Source: Alistipes sp.
GTDB taxonomy: Bacteria; Bacteroidota; Bacteroidia; Bacteroidales; Rikenellaceae
Direction of reading: 5' to 3'
Length of the DNA stretch: 64,000 nucleotides
Assembly: GCA_029059935.1 (NCBI GenBank)
Contig: JAIDUZ010000056.1
Span: 1-64,000 of the forward strand
The notes under the pieces: model-generated
What the model saw: only the letters and a program-made list of their open reading frames with translations
What the model was told of the DNA's origin: nothing
Database searches by the model: none
In this document: one piece after another, positions 35,099 through 41,109 of the stretch
How the letters are laid out: each line of letters starts with the position of its first letter
Numbering within the stretch: position 1 is the stretch's first letter
Position numbers and translations under genes: made by a program

Positions 35099-36928
35099 AT
35101 GTTCAAGACATATTTGCGGCTCTTAGGATTCGCCAAGCCCCTCGGCCGCTATGCCGTGCCCTACTTCTTCTACTCGCTCCTCTACGCGCTCTTCAACTCC
35201 TGCACGTTCCTGCTCATCATCCCCATTCTCAACACGATGTTCAGGCCCGACTACACGTTCGAGACGGTAGACCGGCTTCCGCCCGTGGAGTTCGACTCGG
35301 CCTACCTCGAAACGCTGTTCAACTATTGCTACGGCCGCATCTTCACCGAATTCCGGGTCGAGAACGTGCTCATCCTGCTGGCCGCCATCGCCGTGGGGTC
35401 GAGTTTCCTGAGCAATCTGTTCCGCTACCTGGGCTCGTGGACCGTCGAGCAGCTCCGCACCCGCACCCTGCAACGCATCCGCAACGAGATGTTCTCCCGC
35501 GTCATCGGCATGCACGCCGGTTATTTCAGCGACCAGCGCAAGGGCGACATCATCTCGAAAATCACGTCGGACGTCAACGTCGTGCAGTTCTGCATCACCA
35601 ACACCTTGCAGGTGGCTTTCCGCGAGCCGTTTCTCATCATCTTCTACCTGGTGATGATGGTCGGAATTTCGTGGGAACTGTCGCTTTTCTCGCTTTTCTA
35701 CCTCCCTGTCGTGGCGCTGCTCATCGGCAGCATCGTCAAGCGGCTGCGACACCCGGCGCTGACGAACCAGCAGCGCATGGGCGAGCTGGTCTCGGCGCTC
35801 GACGAGTCGCTCTCGGGCATCAAGGTCATCAAGAGCTACAACGCCACCGACTACATCAGACGCAAGTTCTACGCCATCAACGCCGACCTTTCGCGCATCA
35901 CCCTCTCCATGGCCCGGCGGCAGCAGCTGGCCTCGCCCATGAGCGAATTCCTGGGCATCATGGCCGTAGGCGTCATGCTCGTCTTCGGCGGCGCCCTGGT
36001 CGTCCGGGGCCTGCTCAACGCCGGAGGATTCATCGCCTTCATCGCCATGTTCTCGCAAATCACGCGCCCGGTGCGTACGTTCATCGACCAGTTCGCCAAC
36101 ATCAACCAGGGCATCGCCGCCGGCGAGCGCATCTTCTCCATCATCGACACCCGCAGCGAAATCGAGGATAAGGCCGAGGCGCTGGAGCTCCGCGGCCTCA
36201 AGGACAAAATCGAGTTCCGCGACGTGCACTTCTCCTACGACGGCAGCCGCGAAGTCATCGGGGGCGTCTCGTTCGAAATCCGCCGCGGCGAGACGGTAGC
36301 CCTGGTGGGTCCGTCGGGCGGCGGCAAATCGACGCTCAGCGAGCTGATTCCCCGTTTCTACGACCCCTCGGCCGGCGACATCCTCATCGACGGGGTGCCT
36401 CTGCGCGACTACCGGCAGGAGAGCCTGCGCGCCCACATGAGCGTCGTCTCGCAGGACACCGTGCTCTTCAACGACACCATCGAGGGCAACATCGCCCTGG
36501 GACGTCCCGACGCCACCCATGAAGAGATCGTCGAGGCAGCCCGCGTCGCCAACGCCGACGACTTCATCCGCGAGGCTCCCGAGGGCTACGCCACCAACAT
36601 CGGCGACCGGGGTTCGAAGCTCTCGGGCGGCCAGCGCCAGCGGCTCTCCATAGCCCGCGCCGTGCTGAAAAACCCCGACATCCTGATTCTCGACGAGGCC
36701 ACCTCGGCCCTCGACACCGAGAGCGAGAAGCTGGTGCAGGAGGCGCTCAACAAGTTGTTGGTCGGGCGCACGTCCATCGTCATCGCCCACCGCCTGTCGA
36801 CCATCCGCAGCGCCGACCGCATCATCGTCGTCGACCACGGCCGCATCGCCGAGCAGGGCACGCATACCGAGCTCATGGCCAAGGGCGGCATCTACGCCAA
36901 ACTCATCGAGATGCAGTCGTTCGAGTAA
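35099..36928 (+). CDS. ABC transporter, permease/ATPase fusion (MsbA-like exporter)
   Basis: Six TM region plus NBD: VALVGPSGGGKSTLSELIPRFYDP (Walker A), LSGGQRQRLSIARAVLKNPDILILDEATSALD. Confidence 0.93.
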   Translation: MFKTYLRLLGFAKPLGRYAVPYFFYSLLYALFNSCTFLLIIPILNTMFRPDYTFETVDRLPPVEFDSAYLETLFNYCYGRIFTEFRVENVLILLAAIAVGSSFLSNLFRYLGSWTVEQLRTRTLQRIRNEMFSRVIGMHAGYFSDQRKGDIISKITSDVNVVQFCITNTLQVAFREPFLIIFYLVMMVGISWELSLFSLFYLPVVALLIGSIVKRLRHPALTNQQRMGELVSALDESLSGIKVIKSYNATDYIRRKFYAINADLSRITLSMARRQQLASPMSEFLGIMAVGVMLVFGGALVVRGLLNAGGFIAFIAMFSQITRPVRTFIDQFANINQGIAAGERIFSIIDTRSEIEDKAEALELRGLKDKIEFRDVHFSYDGSREVIGGVSFEIRRGETVALVGPSGGGKSTLSELIPRFYDPSAGDILIDGVPLRDYRQESLRAHMSVVSQDTVLFNDTIEGNIALGRPDATHEEIVEAARVANADDFIREAPEGYATNIGDRGSKLSGGQRQRLSIARAVLKNPDILILDEATSALDTESEKLVQEALNKLLVGRTSIVIAHRLSTIRSADRIIVVDHGRIAEQGTHTELMAKGGIYAKLIEMQSFE

Positions 36929-37167
36929 GCACCGAAGCGCAATCATGAATTAAGAATCGAGGAGGGCATGGCTCTCCTCTTTTTGTTCCGGCAAACAACA
37001 AGAGGAGAACAACAAACGCAGCGCAGTCAAGAATCTGCTTCATCCGCATCTCTTCTACAGCTCCCGCCTTGTATTCAGAGGAGCACAGCGACGAAGAATC
37101 TACCCCTCCCCTCCAAGGGCCCCGGCTCTCCCCATCTTTACTCGCACTGCACAGCATTCGCCTTTTC

Positions 37168-37217
37168 TTCGTTGCCCGGCTGGGGGGGGTCGCGCGGAGC
37201 GCGAGCCGGGCAACGAA
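37168..37217. repeat. Nested hairpin element, copy 1
   Basis: TTCGTTGCCCGGCT-GGGGGGGGT-CGCGC GGA GCGCG-AGCCGGGCAACGAA; 14-bp perfect outer stem. Confidence 0.8.
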
Positions 37218-37237
37218 TAATCTGCGACTGCAATATT

Positions 37238-37441
37238 AAACCCCGTTCTTAACGAGGCGTCATTCCGACTGCACCGTCAGAATCGCCGTCCCAAAGAATT
37301 TATCGTGTTGCTTCCGCTGACGTTCCCGAATCGCTGTTTTCCCTCGGGGGCGGCTCGCACCATAGGTGCGACCCCCGCAGCCGCCCCCGAAGAGTCTTTC
37401 CGCCCGACGTGACATCCCCCGCCCCGTTAAGAACGGGGTTT
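37238..37441. repeat. 17-bp perfect inverted repeat enclosing hairpin copy 2
   Basis: AAACCCCGTTCTTAACG (37238-37254) and CGTTAAGAACGGGGTTT (37425-37441). Confidence 0.85.
37344..37390. repeat. Nested hairpin element, copy 2 (same architecture on the opposite strand)
   Basis: TCGGGGGCGGCT-CGCACC ATA GGTGCG-ACCCCCGC-AGCCGCCCCCGA; 12-bp perfect outer stem. Confidence 0.8.
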
Positions 37442-37665
37442 TGCTATATTTGCATTCCAAGCAAACAATATCTCGGGAATAATCGCAAAACCCTGCTTTC
37501 AGCAAGCCGCCGGAGGCTGCGGCCTGCAAGTCCGCTGCCCTCCGTCGCATGAATTTGTCAATCGCGGATTGTGAATTTTGAATTCTTCTTCTTATCTTTG
37601 ATTGCATCTTAGATACTCACGTTCGGCAAAATGCAAGTAAACTTGCTTTTGCCCTTACTTATTCG

Positions 37666-37673
37666 TATCTTTG
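37666..37673 (+). promoter_or_regulatory. Bacteroidetes -7 element (TAnnTTTG) for ileS
   Basis: TATCTTTG about 40 nt upstream of the ileS ATG. Confidence 0.6.
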
Positions 37674-37713
37674 CAAATTGTCGGACCACCGACACGAAAC
37701 AGCCTATACCGCT

Positions 37714-40700
37714 ATGAAATTCAAGGAGTACAAAGGTCTCGATCTGGCCGGGCTCGCCGCCGAGGTTCTCGGCGAGTGGGATGCCCGCGACACATTCTGC
37801 AAAAGCATCTCCACGCGCGAGGGACACCCGTCGTTCGTCTTCTACGAGGGTCCCCCGTCGGCCAACGGACTGCCGGGCATCCACCACGTCATGGCCCGCA
37901 CCATCAAGGACGTCTTCTGCCGCTACAAGACGCAGCAAGGTTTCCGCGTGCACCGCAAGGCCGGGTGGGACACCCACGGACTGCCCGTCGAGCTGGGCGT
38001 CGAGAAGAAGCTGGGCATCACCAAGGAGGACATCGGCCGCAAGATTTCCATCGAGGAGTACAACCGCACCTGCCGCGAGGCCGTCATGGAGTTCACGGGC
38101 GTGTGGGAGAACCTCACGCGCAAGATGGGCTACTGGGTCAACATGGACGATCCCTACATCACCTACGACAACAAGTATATCGAGACGCTGTGGTGGCTCC
38201 TCAAGCAGCTCTTCGACAAGGGACTGCTCTACAAGGGCTACACCATCCAGCCCTACTCCCCCGCCGCCGGCACGGGTCTTTCGACCCACGAGCTCAACCA
38301 GCCGGGCTGCTACCGCGACGTCAAGGACACCACCTGCACGGCGCAGTTCCGCATCATCCGCAACGCCGAGAGCGAGAAGCTCTTCGGCAGCGACGACTGC
38401 CCGCTCTACTTCCTGGCCTGGACGACCACTCCGTGGACGCTGCCGTCCAATACGGCGCTCGCCGTCGGCCCGTCGATCGAGTACGTCAAGGTGCGCTGCA
38501 CCAACCCCTATACCGAGACGCCGCAGGCCGTCATCCTGGCCCGCGACCTCGTTCCCGCCTGCTTCACCAAGAAGATGGAGGGCACCTACGAGCTTACCGG
38601 CGAGAGCTGGCGCGGCGACGAACTCGTCGGCATCCGCTACGAACAGCTGATTCCGTGGGTCAAGCCCGACGGCGATGCGTTCCGCGTCATCGCGGGCGAC
38701 TACGTGACCACTTCCGACGGTACCGGCATCGTCCACATCGCCCCCACGTTCGGCGCCGACGATGCCCGCGTGGCCCGCGCCGCCGGCATCCCGCCCCTCT
38801 TCATGGTCGACCGGGCCGGCAAGAACCAGCCGATGGTCGACCGGACCGGCAAGTTCTTCCTCCTCGACGACCTCGACCCCGACTTCGTGCGCACGCATGT
38901 CGACACCAAGCACTACGCCGAATATGCCGGCCGCTACGTGAAGAACGCCTACGACGACAAGCTCACCGACGCCGATTCGACGCTCGACATCGACCTCTCA
39001 GTCATGCTCAAGGCCGAAAACAAGGTCTTCCGAATCGAGAAGCACACCCACTCCTATCCCCATTGCTGGCGCACCGACAAACCGGTGCTCTACTACCCGC
39101 TCGACTCGTGGTTCATCCGCACCACGGCCTTGCGCGACCGCATGATCGAGCTCAACAAGACCATCCGCTGGAAGCCCGAGTCGACCGGTACGGGCCGCTT
39201 CGGCAAGTGGCTGGAGGGGCTGGTCGACTGGAACCTCTCGCGTTCGCGCTTCTGGGGCACGCCGCTGCCCGTGTGGGCCACGGAGGACCACGCCGAACTC
39301 AAGTGCATCGGTTCGGTCGAGGAGCTGACGGGCGAAATCGAGAAGTCGATCGCCGCCGGCTTCATGCAGGAGAATCCCTACAAGAATTTCAAGGTCGGCG
39401 ACATGTCGGCAGAGAACTATTCGACCGCCAACATCGACCTCCACCGTCCCTACGTCGACCAGATCGTGCTCGTCTCGTCCAAGGGCGAGCCCATGCGCCG
39501 CGAACCCGACCTCATCGACGTGTGGTTCGACTCGGGCGCCATGCCCTACGCGCAGGTCCACTACCCGTTCGAGAACAAGGAGGGATTCGGCGACGTCTAC
39601 CCCGCCGACTTCATCGCCGAGGGCGTCGACCAGACGCGCGGCTGGTTCTTCACGCTGCACGCCATCGCTTCGATGCTCTTCGACTCGGTGGCTTTCAGAA
39701 ACATCATCTCCAACGGTCTGGTGCTCGACAAGAACGGCAACAAAATGTCCAAGCGTCTGGGCAACGCCGTCGACCCGTTCGAGGTGCTCGACACCTACGG
39801 AGCCGACGCCACGCGCTGGTACATGATTTCCAACTCCCAGCCGTGGGACAACCTCAAGTTCGACCGCGAGGGCGTCGACGAGGTGCGCCGCAAGTTCTTC
39901 GGCACGCTCTACAACACCTATTCGTTCTTCGCCCTCTACGCCAACATCGACGGTTTCACGGGTCGCGAAGAGGAGATTCCCGTCGCCGAGCGCCCCGAAA
40001 TCGACCGCTGGATCATCTCGCTCCTCAACACGCTCGTCGCCGACGTCACGCGCTGTCTGGAAGACTACGACCCCACGCCGGCGGCCCGCGCCATCCAGGA
40101 ATTCGTGGGCGAGAACCTCTCCAACTGGTATGTACGCCTCAACCGCAAGCGTTTCTGGGGCGGCGGGATGACCGACGACAAGCTGGCGGCCTACCAGACG
40201 CTCTACACCTGCCTGGAGACCGTAGCGATGCTCTCGGCTCCGTTCGCACCGTTCATCTCCGACCGCATCTTCGGCGACCTGAACGCCGTGAGCGGCCGCC
40301 ACAGCGACGAATCGGTCCACCTCTCGACCTTCCCCAAGGCCGACCCGACGCTCATCGACACCCCCCTGGAAGAGATGATGGCCACGGCGCAGCAGCTCTC
40401 CTCGATGGTGCTGGCCCTGCGCCGCAAGGTCTCCATCAAGGTGCGCCAGCCGCTGCAGAAAATCATCGTTCCGGTCCTCGATCCGGCCATGGCGGCCCGT
40501 ATCGAAGCGGTGAAGAAGCTGGTGATGAACGAAGTGAACGTCAAGGAGGTCGAACTCATCCAAAACACCGCCGGCATCATCACCAAGCGCATCAAGCCCA
40601 ACTTCAAGACCCTGGGCCCCCGCTACGGCAAATACATGAAGCAGATCGCGGCCCTCACGGCCGAATTCTCGCAGGAGCGCATCGCCGAAATCGAGGCCGC

Positions 40701-41109
40701 AGCCGAAACCGTGCTGGAGCTGGGTGCCGAGAAAATCACGGTGACGCCCGCCGACTTCGAAATCACGTCGGAAGACATGCCGGGCTGGCTCGTCGCCACG
40801 GAGGGCAAGCTGACCGTGGCGCTCGACATCACGCTCACCGACGACCTGCGTGCCGAGGGTGTGGCCCGCGAGCTGGTCAACCGCATCCAAAACATCCGCA
40901 AGGATTCGGGATTCGAAGTCACCGACCGCATCCGCGTCGAAATCGCCGACCTCGGCTTCGTGGCCGACGCCGTCGCCCGGCATGCCGACTACATCGCATC
41001 GCAGACGCTGGCCGACTCCGTCCGCCTGGCGGCCGCACCTACGGGCGAAGCGTGCGTCGATGCCGAAATCGACGAACAATCCGTCCGCATCGCTCTGACG
41101 CGCGTCTGA
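37714..41109 (+). CDS. ileS: Isoleucine--tRNA ligase
   Basis: [65 protein letters not shown]. Confidence 0.97.
   Translation: [1131 protein letters not shown]

Follow-up and report, generated by a model that had tools for sequence, protein, structure and literature searches.

We favour, with reasonable though far from complete confidence, the view that the two nested hairpins lying upstream of ileS in the source genome, an Alistipes sp., are members of a dispersed family of non-coding REP-like repeats of the Rikenellaceae that is spread by a protein which is not a Y1 transposase and which reads their shape. The family appears to spread without the enzyme usual for such elements. The two copies found in the window, by which we mean the whole 64-kb stretch of DNA that was analysed, are as follows.

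37168..37217, plus strand: hairpin copy 1, class A (sequence, inverted repeat, match of 61.3 bits to the R1 model, folding)
37344..37390, minus strand: hairpin copy 2, class B (sequence, match of 73.9 bits to the R1 model, folding)

Copy 1 has an outer stem of 14 bp (37168-37181 paired with 37204-37217, TTCGTTGCCCGGCT/AGCCGGGCAACGAA), a G-rich bulge of 9 nt (GGGGGGGGT, 37182-37190) and the inner stem CGCGC/GGA/GCGCG (37191-37203). Copy 2 has an outer stem of 12 bp (37344-37355 paired with 37379-37390, TCGGGGGCGGCT/AGCCGCCCCCGA) and, read on the minus strand, a G-rich bulge of 8 nt (GCGGGGGT, 37371-37378) and the inner stem CGCACC/TAT/GGTGCG (37356-37370). Sequence, inverted-repeat and stem scans all place the two hairpins where the original prediction had put them; the spacing of about 175 bp that it gave holds from start to start (176 bp) but not from edge to edge (126 bp). 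Folded as DNA both copies do far better than shuffles (z -5.2 to -6.8), folded as RNA they again do better (z -2.4 to -5.6), and a scan for perfect stems together with a covariance-model search detected no further nested hairpins in the window.

In the unit, GGCT/AGCC closes an outer stem of 10-15 bp, the G-rich bulge GNGGSGGT is one-sided and the hairpin inside is CGC...GCG; both strands fold well, whether as DNA or as RNA. In an alignment of 27 diverse members that was built without structure information, 20 columns are invariant and all of them fall in GGCT, the bulge, CGC, GCG and AGCC; the outer and inner stems vary in sequence among members with their pairing retained, the core letters staying fixed. 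When the proposed structure is laid over these 27 sequences 93.6% of pair cells are standard, and the covariation score is 0.416, compared with 0.110 for shuffled alignments (reached in 0 of 500) and at most 0.096 when the partners are slid. The same is seen when arms are exchanged: own outer arms pair with a score of at least 6 in 96% of 78 distinct arm pairs, whereas arms swapped between dissimilar copies pair in 2%. The bulge is on the same side every time and is 8-12 nt long, never shorter than 8, its main forms being GCGGGGGT (n=85), GGGGCGGT (n=42) and GGGCCGGT (n=10), with rarer ones besides.

Most classes carry a second small hairpin directly 3' of the unit, but it is lacking in A and B, the two classes of the window. 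A second hairpin of at least 6 bp is found on the 3' side of 88 of 166 copies, compared with 9 of 166 on the 5' side and 8 of 166 in shuffled sequence, and its sequence varies by group while remaining paired (GCAAGGTC/GACCTTGC, CAAAATC/GATTTTG, GGCAGTTTC/GAAACTGCC). Some copies also look rearranged. At four loci (L013, L031, L036 and L044) a class C left arm is joined to a class A right arm so that the outer stem cannot pair, two of these chimaeras being at contig ends and two internal. Inner loops of class B and class C copies run both ways (ACC-TTT-GGT and ACC-AAA-GGT, for example at L025 and L031), and the class A core of the relative G081 is flipped with respect to that of the window, both of which look like inversion of segments within the palindrome.

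The core pattern GGGGGTCGCN{3,20}GCGAGCC has 46 matches in the 1.83-Mb source genome and its reversed control has none; one of the 46 (C50:3658) lies in an unrelated context, folds otherwise and looks coincidental. Stems in this genome fall mainly into three classes, A, B and C, of which C (CGCCCGGGCCGGCT) is the commonest and is represented by neither window copy. When 84,980 species genomes were scanned, the exact core turned up in 52 stretches, 49 of them in Rikenellaceae, Alistipes or the Bacteroidales isolate C35; the remaining three, in two actinobacteria and one Desulfobacteraceae genome, have flanks without an outer stem and are taken as chance. With the R1 model matches were obtained in 19 of 250 Rikenellaceae genomes (the source and 18 of 249 others), 17 of the 19 belonging to the genus of the window, and stem variants differ from genome to genome. 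Of 393 genomes drawn evenly from the order, few of them Rikenellaceae, the source genome alone matched and the other 392 did not. As these genome searches score the best 13-21 candidates per genome, the copy numbers are lower bounds and weak members can escape. The original prediction had anticipated further members with the same layout, and many were found, with compensatory changes and not just as exact copies. Viral contigs gave no match to the main core and one to a variant core, hence no sign of a phage vehicle. A description of the family was not found in a search of the main texts of open-access papers, and a catalogue of candidate RNAs from microbiomes (PMC8040213) could list it; an Rfam scan of the window region returned sub-threshold matches, none above a gathering score.

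Copies are intergenic, biased towards gene 3' ends and found in both orientations. None of those in the source genome lies inside a gene called by our own gene calls, and of 167 copies, convergent gaps hold 36 and divergent gaps 18, co-directional gaps hold 29 in one orientation and 49 in the other, and the rest are at locus ends. In the relatives the median distance is 166 nt to a facing 3' end and 328 nt to a 5' end. A TTTG promoter-like motif to the left of the foot was considered as a general feature and set aside, being enriched just in a subset with a common left flank.

The window copies lie together in the gap between an ABC transporter gene and ileS, which contains the following features.

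35099..36928, plus strand: ABC transporter gene, upstream context outside the element (Pfam ABC_membrane, ABC_tran)
36995..37510, approximate edges, no strand: lineage-specific block with both hairpins (from alignment; missing at the same junction in the relatives G072 and G160)
37241..37257, no strand: small palindrome module CCCCGTT-CTT-AACGAGG, which recurs in the intergenic mosaics of the genome
37422..37438, no strand: second copy of the small palindrome, CCCCGTT-AAG-AACGGGG
37717..41109, plus strand: ileS, isoleucyl-tRNA synthetase gene, downstream context (Pfam tRNA-synt_1, Anticodon_1)

This gap is 788 bp here. Relatives with no hairpins in it have a shorter gap, of 208-217 bp (G072, G160 and G152), 232 bp (G046) or 179 bp (G087); in G081 it is 532 bp and holds one degenerate class A hairpin in the opposite orientation. 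G072 and G160 retain both the terminator upstream and the promoter box of ileS, TATCTTTG, which indicates that the hairpins entered with a block of ~500 bp and are probably not an ileS leader. The terminator-like hairpin (GAGGAG...CTCCTCTTTTT, 36959-36984) follows the ABC transporter gene. The ileS promoter region itself (37595-37680) is a recurrent module, TATCTTTG ... TTAGATACTC.CG.TCGGCAAAATGCAAG ... TTATTCGTATCTTTG, that includes the promoter-like box and is also found at L117, L072, L073 and L032; repeats of it occur in relatives, G081 for instance having more than one before ileS. A 22-nt inverted repeat around copy 2 was rejected as the terminal repeat of a transposon, since its arms are two copies of the frequent palindrome module.

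In the source genome (L001-L045) gaps of 0.5-1.2 kb are mosaics in which several modules recur, among them GTCATTCTGAG...GAAGAATCT and a palindrome whose stems covary (CCCCGTT-CTT-AACGGGG, CCCGGCT-AAG-AGCCGGG, CCCGACT-CTT-AGTCGGG). Class A and class B hairpins often lie less than ~1 kb apart with variable spacing and orientation (L034, L035, L008, L011, L029, L032 and L045). In BIMEs the REPs of a cluster alternate in orientation. Here the A/B pair in the window faces each other, and similar pairs occur at L004 and L008, with an E pair in L156, the spacing and orientation of A/B pairs varying. As copies in the source genome sit in these bigger mosaics, they may have been carried passively.

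Even close species differ in their units, which have been gained, lost and replaced. Six genomes have a hairpin in the spacer between the FAA-hydrolase and Maf genes: the stem is of class C in four of them, of another sequence in G160 and degenerate in G113. No hairpin was seen there in the others. The spacer between the SpoU-methylase and aminotransferase genes has a hairpin in G072, G113 and G081, one with unrelated stems in G104 and G108, and none in the source genome, G191 and G238. G108 and G104 have eno products that are identical throughout the 381 aa that were compared, yet the units that follow eno in these two genomes are unrelated in sequence and oppositely oriented. The slots are thus refilled or converted, something for which plain vertical descent does not account. 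Some orthologous positions are retained in several species, which agrees with a conserved function and with an old insertion alike. No target-site duplication is visible at the empty and filled junctions compared, at which no precise unit edge was established.

That the hairpins are chance palindromes or assembly artefacts can be dismissed: the window is indeed a draft assembly and half of the C/A chimaeras are at contig ends, but the pattern counts against the empty control and the presence of the family in independent genomes, Alistipes muris DSM 112343 among them, refute it. The copies found across the genome, their intergenic placement and the covariation seen in the 27-copy alignment bear out the original prediction of a selected REP/BIME-like structure as opposed to chance. 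The main rival to a mobile repeat is a structured RNA element, such as a 3'-UTR stabiliser, a processing site or a bidirectional terminator, kept for its action when transcribed. It would account for the strong covariation, for the units that several species have at orthologous positions within short operon spacers, for the closeness of units to gene 3' ends in relatives and for their being common where genes converge. We nevertheless judge it unlikely. Copies occur in both orientations to genes (the 29 and 49 of the co-directional gaps), which argues against a strand-specific mRNA element and is expected of a DNA repeat, although a symmetric terminator would be compatible with it. G-T and A-C mismatches, at 66 and 25 in raw counts, are near equal as distinct events (25 and 21) and so do not tell an RNA strand from DNA, and there is also no Rfam family and presence varies between close species.

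The mobiliser that would be looked for in a REP family is a Y1 transposase, and it had been suggested that a RAYT be looked for elsewhere in the genome. If this were a genuine RAYT-mobilised REP family that has lost its transposase, or whose transposase escaped detection, it would show the repeat behaviour seen here, and in Bacteroidetes the genes of TnpA_REP subclass 2.6 are reported to have atypical secondary structures on their flanks, of which the genome holds further copies (PMC6006769). The RAYT link is nevertheless not supported, as no Y1 transposase was found in any hairpin-bearing genome: PF01797 (Y1_Tnp) is without a match at E<=1 in the source genome and has matches in 5 of 250 Rikenellaceae genomes but in 0 of the 19 with hairpins, of which 9 are at least 90% complete, the genomes being drafts in which single ones could miss a gene. 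A GTAG/GTGG tag lies within 6 nt at the 5' foot in 2 of 158 copies and the bulge is too long for such a REP, so that this reading, already disfavoured, is now improbable. More improbable still are folded attC-like recombination sites used by a tyrosine recombinase. They too would be folded single-strand sites with unpaired bases, and tyrosine recombinase genes are present in every genome tested, yet no integron integrase exceeds the curated TIGR02249 cut-off in 22 genomes, GTTRRRY, the attC core, is absent from the invariant columns, and in the loci that were read no gene cassettes are bounded by hairpins. A search for Y2_Tnp (IS91/ISCR) gave no match, but control genomes gave none either. Among the genes next to the units, recurrence is confined to orthologous loci and involves no family of mobile genes.

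We read this as a new REP-like family, probably moved by a candidate protein that recognises the folded core. Copying would happen when the element is single-stranded and folded, and a putative trans-acting protein, other than a Y1 transposase, would read the shape together with the fixed core and disregard the stem sequence, which would leave the stems free to diversify by lineage. Insertions would survive mostly in gaps close to gene 3' ends, where as RNA the hairpins may also affect mRNA 3' ends, and in the window both copies would have arrived within a ~500-bp mosaic of repeat modules between the transporter gene and the ileS promoter. More tentatively, and with rather less than even confidence, the family could be an undescribed class of mobile hairpin, defined by its shape and fixed bulge core and moved by a protein other than Y1/RAYT. 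RAYT transposases account for the known REP families, and high-copy, constrained hairpins with no detected Y1 transposase would mean that a common gut genus disperses or maintains such elements by some other route; gene expression in Alistipes would be concerned as well, should the units act at the 3' ends of mRNAs.

Amongst known repeats, MITEs are likewise small, non-coding and intergenic, but no consistent terminal inverted repeat lies outside the hairpin here, the 22-nt repeat of the window being made of palindrome modules, and integron attC sites differ by the integrase and the GTTRRRY core discussed above. The CGTC-tagged REPs, which have no dedicated transposase (PMC3733652), are similar in being REP-like with no known mobiliser, but differ in their tag, as neither CGTC within 6 nt 5' of the foot nor GACG within 6 nt 3' of it occurs in any of 158 copies. 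The structures described as flanking subclass 2.6 (PMC6006769) are also unusual hairpins of Bacteroidetes with copies elsewhere in the genome, but go with a Y1 gene, which these do not. In the canonical REP rule a basal and an upper stem are joined by a bulge of 1-3 nt (PMC6006769), and compared with RAYT-associated REPs the family has a bulge of 8-12 nt, is without the GTAG/GTGG foot tag and is found in genomes with no Y1/HUH transposase (PF01797). What it shares with the canonical REP/BIME elements of Enterobacteria and Pseudomonas is that they are short imperfect palindromes with many extragenic copies near gene 3' ends, sometimes paired in opposite orientation and forming species-specific sequence families. 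By foot tag, bulge size and transposase the family is not a canonical REP; by its behaviour it is REP/BIME-like.
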